Shown in pieces: positions 34,421-37,135 of a stretch of 60,769 nucleotides of DNA. Made by a program: the position numbers and the translations under genes. The DNA is from a bacterium. GTDB lineage: Bacteria; Patescibacteriota; Saccharimonadia; Saccharimonadales; Saccharimonadaceae. The stretch's first letter is position 1. Each line of letters starts with the position of its first letter. Below the pieces are notes generated by a model. That model saw only the letters and a program-made list of their open reading frames with translations. It was not told where the DNA came from and searched no databases. The DNA lies in contig JAUMUX010000004.1 of assembly GCA_030530485.1 (NCBI GenBank), positions 1-60,769 of the forward strand, read 5' to 3'.

Positions 34421-34658
34421 TTGATTGGATTTTTAGTGTTAAGACGAGGTAAAATCCCTAAGCCAATCAACTGATAATTTTGTTCGCTTTTAAGGATTTT
34501 TGGTCTTTCAAATAAAACATAATTAGCGATATTGTCAAGAGAACAAAGAAAAAATGTTTCACGCAAAATATATCACGAGGCGAATTAAAAAAGCCAAGCG
34601 CTAAAAATATTTTTGTGGAAAAGTTGAGTAAAGTGTGGAAAAAAAGAAAGAGAAGTGA
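34421..34658. other. AT-rich non-coding stretch with a dyad at 34420-34471
   Basis: No credible gene. The one feature is a bulged stem: GTTGATT (34420-34426) pairs with AATCAAC (34465-34471), and GGATTTT (34427-34433) with AAAATCC (34451-34457), giving 14 bp with a 7-nt bulge. No promoter or T-run clearly belongs to it. The remainder is A/T-rich and unstructured to the eye. An ORF on the minus strand (34381-34566) has no ribosome site and reads through the dyad. Confidence 0.5.
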
Positions 34659-34664
34659 TATAAT
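34659..34664 (+). promoter_or_regulatory. Extended -10 of the 34.67-kb structured RNA
   Basis: TATAAT with TGA directly upstream. It ends 6 nt before G34671, the first base of the RNA's 14-bp outer stem, which is where a start point is expected. The -35 region is weak (TGGAAA). Confidence 0.6.
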
Positions 34665-34670
34665 GAAAGG

Positions 34671-34822
34671 GTCATAAATTTATATAAAGTATAGAATCGA
34701 AAGGCGATTTTCGTATTTGATTGAACTATTTGTAGGGCAATCATTTACGGCAATTTTTAATGTTCAATCTTTAGATTCTATATTATAAATTTATGACAAC
34801 CGTTTATGGTTGTCCTATTTTT
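34671..34822 (+). ncRNA. Candidate structured RNA next to the methyltransferase/HNH island
   Basis: About 150 nt with its own extended -10 (34659-34664) and a terminator (GACAACC 34795-34801 with GGTTGTC 34808-34814, then CTATTTTT). The ends form a 14-bp perfect stem (34671-34684 with 34784-34797). After an asymmetric internal loop (5 nt versus 1 nt) a 9-bp stem follows (34690-34698 with 34774-34782). Inside are a CGAAA/TTTCG hairpin (34698-34713) and an 8-bp stem (34719-34726 with 34762-34769) closing a 35-nt loop. The terminator stem shares three bases with the outer stem, so termination and outer-stem closure may compete. It is not a known RNA I recognise. A foldback (MITE-like) element is the main alternative, but promoter and terminator fit the arms too well for that to be preferred. 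Confidence 0.6.
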
Positions 34823-34849
34823 ATAATATAGAATTTTTAAAACCTTTCG

Positions 34850-35911
34850 ATGAAAGAAAGATTTTTCGTGGCGAATAAAAATTTGCATAATGCCAAAGAA
34901 TCAAAAAATGATGAATTTTACACGCAACTTGAAGATATTGAAAAAGAACTCTCGCATTACCGCCACCATTTTGAAGGTAAAGTGGTTTTTTGTAATTGCG
35001 ACGACCCCTACGAGAGTAATTTTTTCAAATATTTCGTGCTAAATTTTAATACTTTAAAACTCAAAAAACTAATTGCTACCAGTTATGTTGCTTCGCCCGT
35101 GGCGTTTAAAGAACTCCCAGCGAAAAAGGGAAATGCTACTTTTGAGGATTTACTCAAGCCGTATAAAATTGAGATTGACGAAGTTTACGACCAAAATGGC
35201 GATGGTGCAATCAATTTACAAGATGTAAAAGAGATTTTAGAGCGTGCCGAAAGAGGTGGCAAAATGACTAAACTAATTGGCGACGGCGATTTTCGCAGCA
35301 GTGAAAGTAAAGAATTGCTTAAACAAGCCGATATTGTGGTCACCAATCCGCCATTTTCGCTGTTTCGTGAATATGTAGCGCAACTAATTGAATTTAATAA
35401 AAAGTTTGTGATTTTGGGGAATAACAACGCGATAACCTATAAAGAAATTTTTCCGCTAATTAAAAATGGCAAAATGTGGCTTGGCTATAGCGCCAACAAA
35501 ACAATGACTTTTCGCTTGAGTAATTTATATAAGCGTTGGAATTATATTGACAAAAACGGTAATAAATATGGCAATGTGCCAGCAATAACTTGGTATACCA
35601 ACTTAGATATCAAAAAACGCCACGAAGAACTGATTTTGGTGAAGAAATACAACCCGCTTGATTACCCAAAATATGACAATTACGACGCGATTGAGGTTTC
35701 GAAAGTGAAAGATATCCCCAAAGATTATAACGGCGTGATGGGCGTGCCGATAACTTTTTTAGATAAGTTTAATCCTGAGCAGTTTGAGCTCATAGGTTCC
35801 AATCGCGGTGTCGATCAAGACCCTGATGGCGTGTATGGTAGAGGCTCATATCTGAACGGTAGAGAAACATTTAAGAGATTGTTTATAATTAACAGAAAGG
35901 TAGAAAAATGA
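34850..35911 (+). CDS. EcoRI-family adenine-specific DNA methyltransferase with EF-hand-like loop
   Basis: 353 aa. Related to the EcoRI methylase family: the ESKNDEFYTQLEDIEKEL start, VVFCNCDDPYESNFFKYF, GDGDFRSSES, and the catalytic N166-P-P-F169 (DIVVTNPPFSLFREYV). It would methylate N6 of adenine at an unknown site. D114-x-N116-x-D118-G-x-I-x-x-x-D125 matches the 12-residue EF-hand/dockerin calcium loop; this insert occurs in some relatives. No Shine-Dalgarno is visible; TATAAT at 34822-34827 lies 22 nt upstream and merges with the T-run of the structured RNA. Phe-Glu is written TTT-GAA/GAG, unlike nearby genes, which suggests acquisition by transfer. It overlaps the nuclease gene by 4 nt (ATGA). 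Confidence 0.9.
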   Translation: MKERFFVANKNLHNAKESKNDEFYTQLEDIEKELSHYRHHFEGKVVFCNCDDPYESNFFKYFVLNFNTLKLKKLIATSYVASPVAFKELPAKKGNATFEDLLKPYKIEIDEVYDQNGDGAINLQDVKEILERAERGGKMTKLIGDGDFRSSESKELLKQADIVVTNPPFSLFREYVAQLIEFNKKFVILGNNNAITYKEIFPLIKNGKMWLGYSANKTMTFRLSNLYKRWNYIDKNGNKYGNVPAITWYTNLDIKKRHEELILVKKYNPLDYPKYDNYDAIEVSKVKDIPKDYNGVMGVPITFLDKFNPEQFELIGSNRGVDQDPDGVYGRGSYLNGRETFKRLFIINRKVEK

Positions 35912-37002
35912 AAATTGAACTACATAAAATTAAGGTAAAAGAGCTGTTTGCCGGCTTCAAGAATGATGAAGAAACTGGCAGGGTGGTGGGTTTTGGCGGT
36001 AAATTAAATATTCGCCCGCCGTATCAGCGTGAGTTTGTTTATAAAGATGCGCAACAAAAAGAGGTGATTCGCACGATTCGCAAAGGTTTTCCGCTCAATA
36101 TTATGTATTGGTCGAAGAATAGTGATGGCACTTTTGAACTTTTAGACGGGCAACAACGCACGATGTCGATTTGTAATTTTTTAACGCCTGCTACGCTTAG
36201 TGTTGATAATAATTATTTTACAAGCTTAACGCCTGAAGAACAAAAGCAAATCGAAGAATACGAGCTGATGATTTATTTTTGTGAGGGCGAAACGCGCGAA
36301 AAGCTGGATTGGTTTAAAATTGTGAATATTGCAGGGGAGGAATTAACACCGCAAGAACTCAGAAATTCAGTTTATACAGGAAGTTGGCTGGTGAGTGCTA
36401 AAAAATATTTCAGTGGAAATAGTTGTAAAGCTAAAGAGCATTACAATAATTATTTGAACAAGAGTTATATTCGCCAAGAAGTTTTGGAAACAGTTTTAAA
36501 ATGGATTTCTGGCGGAAAAATCGAAAATTATATGGGTCTTCACCAAAACGATGCGAACGCAAAGGAGCTTTGGCGATATTTTGAAGATGTTATGGAGTGG
36601 GTGCAGGCAGTTTTTCCAAATTATCGCCGAGAAATGAAGGGTTTGCCTTGGGGTGAATTTTATAATAAATTTAAAGACCAAGGTTTCGAAAAGATTGGCG
36701 AAGAAAACGAACGGCGAGTTTCAGAGCTTTATCAAGACGATGAAGTTGCTAAAAAGAGCGGAATTTACCAATATATTTTAACTGATGATAAAAAATATTT
36801 AAGTTTGCGCGCTTTCGATAAGAATATTAAAAGTCAAGTTTATGAGCAGCAAAAGGGAATTTGCCCAATTTGCGGCAAATATTACCCGATTGAAGAAATG
36901 GAAGCCGACCACATTATTCCGTGGAGCAAAGGCGGAAAAACCGTGCCAGAAAATTGTCAAATGTTGTGTAAAAAAGATAATCGCGAAAAGAGCGACGAAT
37001 AA
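35908..37002 (+). CDS. DUF262-HNH protein, probable restriction or defence nuclease
   Basis: 364 aa. The N-terminal DUF262 (ParB/GmrS-like) domain contains IRPPYQREFVYK and D80-G-Q-Q-R84-T, the motif linked to nucleotide hydrolysis in GmrSD- and SspE-type proteins. The C-terminal HNH nuclease has C319-P-I-C322, A-D334-H335-IIPWSKGG and ENCQMLC, giving the two zinc CxxC halves and the His/Asn active site. Together with the coupled methyltransferase this looks like a modification/restriction pair. Whether it cuts unmodified or modified DNA cannot be told. AGAAAGG precedes the ATG. A terminator at 37016-37045 follows. Only one TTCGAA occurs in this gene, consistent with foreign origin. Confidence 0.88.
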   Translation: MKIELHKIKVKELFAGFKNDEETGRVVGFGGKLNIRPPYQREFVYKDAQQKEVIRTIRKGFPLNIMYWSKNSDGTFELLDGQQRTMSICNFLTPATLSVDNNYFTSLTPEEQKQIEEYELMIYFCEGETREKLDWFKIVNIAGEELTPQELRNSVYTGSWLVSAKKYFSGNSCKAKEHYNNYLNKSYIRQEVLETVLKWISGGKIENYMGLHQNDANAKELWRYFEDVMEWVQAVFPNYRREMKGLPWGEFYNKFKDQGFEKIGEENERRVSELYQDDEVAKKSGIYQYILTDDKKYLSLRAFDKNIKSQVYEQQKGICPICGKYYPIEEMEADHIIPWSKGGKTVPENCQMLCKKDNREKSDE

Positions 37003-37058: not shown

Positions 37059-37135
37059 TGGTGGGCGATAGAGGACTCGAACCTCTGACTTTCACAACGT
37101 CAATGTGACGCTCTAGCCAACTGAGCTAATCGCCC
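37059..37135 (-). tRNA. tRNA-Val(GAC)
   Basis: A 77-nt cloverleaf on the minus strand with encoded CCA. The acceptor GGGCGAT pairs with ATCGCCC; anticodon loop TTGACGT gives GAC (reads GUC/GUU). Its 3' end faces the methyltransferase/HNH island, the side where integrases insert, but I found no duplicate of the tRNA 3' end on the far side of the island. Confidence 0.94.

Follow-up and report, generated by a model that had tools for sequence, protein, structure and literature searches.

What does a stable, structured RNA do directly ahead of a pair of restriction-modification (R-M) genes? The question is raised by a region (34656-37002) of the window, by which we mean the whole 60,769-nucleotide stretch of a Saccharimonadaceae contig that was analyzed, where an extended -10 element, a 152-nt structured RNA and an intrinsic terminator are followed by two overlapping genes. 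The original prediction, made from the sequence alone, was a dedicated defense unit of RNA, methyltransferase and nuclease, in which the RNA acts as regulator or cofactor. Our results favor the regulator half of this proposal and speak against the cofactor half, because the RNA also precedes unrelated genes. Judging from comparative sequence evidence, the RNA quite probably forms the 5' leader of the mRNA for methyltransferase and nuclease and acts in cis as a transcription attenuator that carries its own antiterminator.

The locus and its genes

All features considered here lie on the plus strand unless stated otherwise. The promoter element TGA-TATAAT (34656-34664, with TATAAT at 34659-34664) is recognizable from its sequence and from the family-wide position of TATAAT. 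The leader RNA (34671-34822, terminator included) folds at -45 kcal/mol, with a z score of -6.6 against shuffled sequences, and belongs to a covariance-model family with covariation in its stems. Its outer stem P1 has 14 bp, formed by GTCATAAATTTATA (34671-34684) and TATAAATTTATGAC (34784-34797), and encloses the 9-bp stem P2, formed by TATAGAATC (34690-34698) and GATTCTATA (34774-34782). The terminator, GACAACC-GTTTAT-GGTTGTC-CTATTTTT (34795-34822), is supported by its sequence and by family comparison, and the GAC of its 5' arm is also the last three bases of P1. The promoter, the nested stems, the terminator and the three shared bases had all been described correctly in the original prediction. 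Internal pairing, read there as hairpins, is present and is better described as a pseudoknot between P3 (34707-34715 with 34746-34754) and P4 (34719-34726 with 34762-34769). An internal strand that had been missed, which we call L2 (TAGGGCAATC, given as UAGGGCAAUC; 34733-34742), is complementary to the terminator 3' arm GGUUGUCCUA. In the window L2 adjoins P3, and a local hairpin there, TGATTG/CAATCA, can mask it. A third arm, A'' (34820-34834), can re-pair with the 3' strand of P2/P1; it is restricted to the window's genus, and as a family-wide feature it was rejected, with no example elsewhere. Just 5' of the promoter are two DnaA-box-like TTTTCCACA sites on the minus strand (34614-34642).

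The first gene (34868-35911) encodes an EcoRI-type adenine-specific DNA methyltransferase (Pfam EcoRI_methylase, PF13651, E 6e-138; PADLOC MTase_II, 423 bits), and the second (35908-37002) a protein with GmrSD_N/DUF262 and HNH domains (Pfam) that is a putative Type II restriction endonuclease (PADLOC REase_II, 415 bits). These identities agree with those first proposed, as do the 4-nt overlap of the two genes (35908-35911) and the nearby tRNA-Val (37059-37135), downstream of the nuclease gene. The methyltransferase frame is open from ATG 34850, and the start is most likely GTG 34868, since the resulting MANKNL start is conserved in a sister genome (G004). The gene had been thought to have no visible Shine-Dalgarno sequence; with the start moved, a purine-rich GAAAGAAAGA (34852-34861), conserved in sister genomes as AGAAAGGA (G004 and G003), provides a Shine-Dalgarno-like region.

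Because both proteins match Type II profiles, the adjacent genes appear to form an ordinary Type II-like R-M system. They resemble the Type II systems with a DUF262-HNH endonuclease in PADLOC (PDLC03297 and PDLC03418) over nearly the full length of both proteins, and the RNA leader is the only unusual feature of the locus. The nuclease shares its GmrSD_N/DUF262 domain with GmrSD and SspE, and is unlike them in having a C-terminal HNH domain and an adjoining cognate methyltransferase, with no GmrSD_C domain found. The window's genome (G000) carries a second pair of the same kind (L112, 5773-5937, minus strand; G000:C10), with a nuclease about 39% identical. Its leader of about 250 nt is T-box-like and has a strong terminator, scoring 19.3 bits (E 0.044) with the Rfam T-box model against a cut-off of 93; the pair is possibly another RNA-controlled R-M operon.

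Comparison of five genomes of the genus (G000 to G004) revealed that the locus is flanked by a glycosyltransferase gene on one side and tRNA-Val/thrS on the other, and that the gene pair is present in G000, G003 and G004 and missing from G001 and G002. The RNA was found at all three occupied loci, its fold kept and its stem sequences rewritten: the P1 5' strands are GTCATAAATTTATA, GTTCTAAAATATT and GTCTCAAAAAT, every one with its complement, the P2 strands are TATAGAATC, GCAGAC and ATACATTTCGA, and the P4 strands are GATTGAAC, TTGAGCC and CTGAGCC. Genome-wide searches of G001 and G002 gave no significant match to the RNA (best E 0.84 in G002). The possibility that the RNA persists in the genus apart from the R-M genes was rejected, as some flanking sequence is left in these two genomes and the RNA is neither there nor elsewhere. 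The empty G001 locus retains the DnaA-box-like sequences TGTGGAAAA and TGTGGATAA. The leader RNA is intact in G003 (L111, 4397-6563), where frameshifts divide the methyltransferase between two reading frames and the nuclease among three, a result of either recent decay or an assembly error. Two related R-M pairs (L110 in G047 and L113 in G111) have no RNA and carry a small helix-turn-helix (HTH) reading frame directly upstream, read from the sequence as XRE-type in G047, with a MerR/excisionase-like type also among the two; it is as if this frame served as an alternative controller.

A family of leaders with covarying pairings

A covariance model built from the three genus sequences (R1) yielded about 15 further candidates among 198 genomes of the same taxonomic family. 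A second model (R2) rested on a hand-made structural alignment of eight sequences, in which variable loops had been shortened or filled with N; of 393 genomes from the order it matched 44. In a phylum-wide sample, R2 matched 8 of 380 genomes at E <= 0.01; six of these belong to the same order, and the two matches outside it share the family's architecture. Nearly all relatives of the RNA come from one order. Genomes usually hold one copy, the maximum being four, and 57 non-redundant members were taken for detailed study. The family-wide architecture consists of a long closing stem that shares GAC with the terminator, a covarying P3 x P4 pseudoknot and the internal strand L2 (GGGCA...); in about six members P3 is weak or absent and a simple apical hairpin takes its place.

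In the eight-sequence alignment, 98.9% of the cells at 34 pairs are paired, and 21 of the 34 pairs have changed on both sides. The covariation score is 0.75, compared to 0.19 in shuffled alignments and at most 0.12 when the alignment is slid, and these counts lean towards the structure because the alignment was fitted to it by hand. An alignment-free test was also performed on the 57 members, in which the complementarity of each RNA's own strands was compared with that of strands swapped among members over 5000 permutations. L2 paired with its own terminator 3' arm at -19.1 kcal/mol, against -13.8 (sd 0.31) for permuted partners; P3 gave -10.2 against -6.8 and P4 -16.2 against -9.2, and none of the 5000 permutations was as good in any of the three cases. 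As permuted partners too carry the conserved GGGC/GTCC core, it is co-variation outside the core that makes the difference; since the GGGC and GUCC consensus was built into the models, only this flanking co-variation is independent evidence. The L2:terminator helix is found in all 57 members, mostly with 10-12 bp. Variants that lack GTCC retain the pairing, as in L288 (TCGAGGCACC with GGTGTCTCGA), L293 (ATCCGGGAA with TTCCCGGAT) and L295 (CCGGGGA with TCCCCGG). Some RNAs ahead of EcoRI-type methyltransferases (L292, L293, L295, L298, L306 and L313; genus g11 where checked) form a divergent variant with an enlarged terminator loop, in which a CCGGGAA-like L2 strand is paired with UUCCCGG in the loop.

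Promoter and terminator accompany the RNA throughout the family. A TATAAT box with at least five of six matches was found in 98% of 56 members, compared to 17% in shuffles, lying 4-5 nt before the model match and 6-7 nt upstream of where P1 begins; as the promoter lies outside both models, it supports the family independently. An intrinsic terminator ends all 57 members, and the start codon of a gene in the same orientation usually follows 20-60 nt later. The exact terminator pattern had no match in viral contigs. Four loci (L192, L195, L196 and L294) have a second terminator-like hairpin with equal GACACC..GGTGTC arms after the first and before the R-M genes. The RNA starts at a promoter and leads a co-oriented gene, as expected of an attenuator leader, and in nearly all members the downstream reading frame has a ribosome-binding site.

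Proposed attenuation and the alternatives to it

Pairing of the terminator 3' arm with the terminator 5' arm and its pairing with L2 exclude each other, and the leader accordingly combines an intrinsic terminator with an antiterminator pairing that, from its co-variation, appears to be under selection. In the mechanism that we propose, transcription would start at P1 or no more than two bases away, and P1 and P2 would close an H-type pseudoknot of P3 and P4. The L2 strand would be a decoy of the terminator 5' arm, with the toehold UAGGGCA and the bases that follow it. In most relatives the 3' part of L2 is itself the P3 3' strand, so that the P3 and P4 pseudoknot would hide L2 and leave GGGCA as the toehold. 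Pairing of the 3' arm with its own 5' arm would give termination and an RNA of about 150 nt, and pairing with L2 would give antitermination and expression of methyltransferase and nuclease. Closure of P3 and P4 (in the window, of the local hairpin over L2) would favor termination, and opening would favor read-through. The computed L2 duplex is stronger than the terminator hairpin in 57 of 57 members, in a calculation that omits the energy penalty for closing a long-range pseudoknot, and the outcome should hinge on the availability of L2 when the 3' arm is transcribed. Within the genus, read-through might be followed by a new pairing, upstream of the ribosome-binding region, of the third arm with the 3' strand of P2/P1. 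Control of read-through into the methyltransferase gene by RNA folding, suggested in the original prediction, is the best reading of these pairings, and it is from them that we infer read-through itself, the operation of the switch in vivo, its direction and the existence of a trigger. At three loci (L160, L159 and L150), sequences like the 5' strand of P1 appear again at the downstream start codon (GGTGTCTAAAGTTG; GAGTGTTCTATG), clearly in statistical terms at L160 only; there the P1 3' strand could cover the ribosome-binding site after read-through.

The genes that follow the RNA bear on what it does. A DNA methyltransferase lies in the next gene or operon in 14 of the 57 members, drawn from four Pfam families: EcoRI_methylase (the window, G003, G004, L201, L189 and L195), C5 DNA_methylase (L144, with RE_HaeIII adjoining, L160 and L165), N6_N4_Mtase (L159, L150 and L193) and Eco57I (L192 and L196). 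An ABC-3C CTD1 protein is the second gene of two further operons (L183 and L199). The RNA does stand before defense genes unusually often. The remaining members mostly precede small membrane or secreted proteins, including DUF4352 and DUF4190-like proteins, a family starting with KDRKTYKILT, and putative surface proteins. One genome, G007, has four copies of the RNA (L168, L184, L194 and L143), at least three of which precede similar putative surface or secreted proteins; the protein after L143 is truncated where the contig stops, and its start is like the others. Viewed from the methyltransferases, the RNA lies directly upstream at 16 of 29 EcoRI-type loci in the family, with several weak matches checked by eye. 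R1 found nothing upstream at 80 genomic loci of EcoRI-type methyltransferases from other lineages, and R2 found none upstream at 76 genomic or viral loci elsewhere; some of the contigs in these searches are short upstream.

This distribution, 16 of 29 loci in the family and 0 of 76 elsewhere, argues for a leader rather than a nuclease cofactor. A role as cofactor or guide of the restriction machinery would agree with how often the RNA is linked to R-M genes (14 of 57 members; 16 of 29 EcoRI-type loci), but the RNA also precedes unrelated methyltransferases and membrane-protein genes and is missing from homologous loci in other lineages, and we consider such a role very improbable. The same facts tell against the dedicated defense system first envisaged: the covarying stems and the linkage sought by covariance search were found within the order, but nothing was found upstream of the methyltransferase at the loci of other lineages, and the RNA is not tied to the nuclease across lineages. 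An improbable, though somewhat better, alternative is a mainly free small RNA: a constitutive terminator would yield a trans-acting product of about 150 nt, and the downstream gene would depend on leak-through or on a promoter of its own. The RNA's promoter, terminator and stable fold would suit this view, and L2, exposed in a loop, could base-pair with other transcripts; against this, the sequence differs in each genome with no common target evident, the RNA always leads a co-oriented gene, and L2 co-varies with its own terminator. Hardly credible is a mobile, MITE-like foldback element, despite inverted repeats at the ends and some copies near recombinases or transposases, since there is usually one copy per genome and never more than four, the site at the -10 box and the orientation are fixed, and structure is kept rather than sequence. 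The many near-identical copies that would mark a foldback element, a danger recognized from the start, were not seen, and the window's genome has a single copy.

A further alternative is a stochastic or constitutive attenuator that answers to no dedicated signal. It could set a low, noisy expression of genes that are toxic in excess, as too much restriction enzyme or membrane protein is harmful and the downstream genes have no common pathway; the elaborate, conserved pseudoknot and toehold seem more than a constant level would need, and we regard this version as possible, if rather unlikely. For the attenuator leader that we prefer, the conserved pseudoknot core is compatible with a riboswitch bearing a ligand-binding aptamer, and the lack of a common pathway downstream does not suggest a classical metabolite riboswitch.

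Relation to known regulators and biological meaning

When the window, two sister loci and 20 family loci were searched against Rfam 15, with gathering and with relaxed thresholds, scores at the RNA did not rise above chance level; none reached a gathering threshold, and a known Rfam family, an option raised in the original prediction, was rejected. A T-box leader was likewise rejected for the window, where no T-box model matched and no specifier loop or UGGN bulge was recognized, even if the choice between terminator and antiterminator in a leader RNA is common to both. ZTP, fluoride and similar riboswitches are 5' leaders with a pseudoknotted domain, an adjoining intrinsic terminator and mutually exclusive pairings. 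The leader has these traits in common with them. It differs in having no Rfam match, in the direct pairing of its loop strand with the 3' arm of the terminator, and in the genes that it precedes, which are defense and envelope genes and not those of a metabolic pathway. In the literature on structured RNAs of these bacteria, the motif survey 10.1093/nar/gkx699 lying outside our search, we found no description of it. We read these leaders as a family, undescribed as far as we found, within a known type of regulator, the riboswitch-like transcription attenuators; its unusual features are the loop-to-terminator decoy and the association with defense genes.

Passages of two reviews (PMC3874152, PMC12707154) retrieved by term search describe control of Type II R-M by C proteins, methylation, repressor methyltransferases, antisense RNA and translational hairpins, and none of those passages names a riboswitch or attenuator leader for R-M. 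As with C proteins and antisense RNA, the proposed target of the leader is an R-M operon, and it sits where relatives have HTH controller genes; unlike them it is a structured sense leader, involving no protein and no antisense promoter that we could see. It is conceivable, though we put it forward tentatively and at somewhat less than even chances, that these RNAs are a riboswitch-like class, nearly specific to one order of ultrasmall bacteria, which senses a signal and, through toehold strand displacement that passes from the pseudoknot to the terminator, switches cell-envelope genes together with R-M/defense operons, as an RNA-only replacement for C proteins.

Inducible expression in Patescibacteria is said to need development, and riboswitches have been named as promising for this purpose (PMC11665869); the leader could supply a native RNA switch for genetics in these organisms. 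The family suggests a testable, RNA-only control of restriction enzymes, and the timing of methyltransferase and nuclease expression in these bacteria becomes directly testable. A leader common to many non-homologous R-M systems and to envelope genes would point, for very small genomes with few regulators, to a joint signal for defense and surface state.
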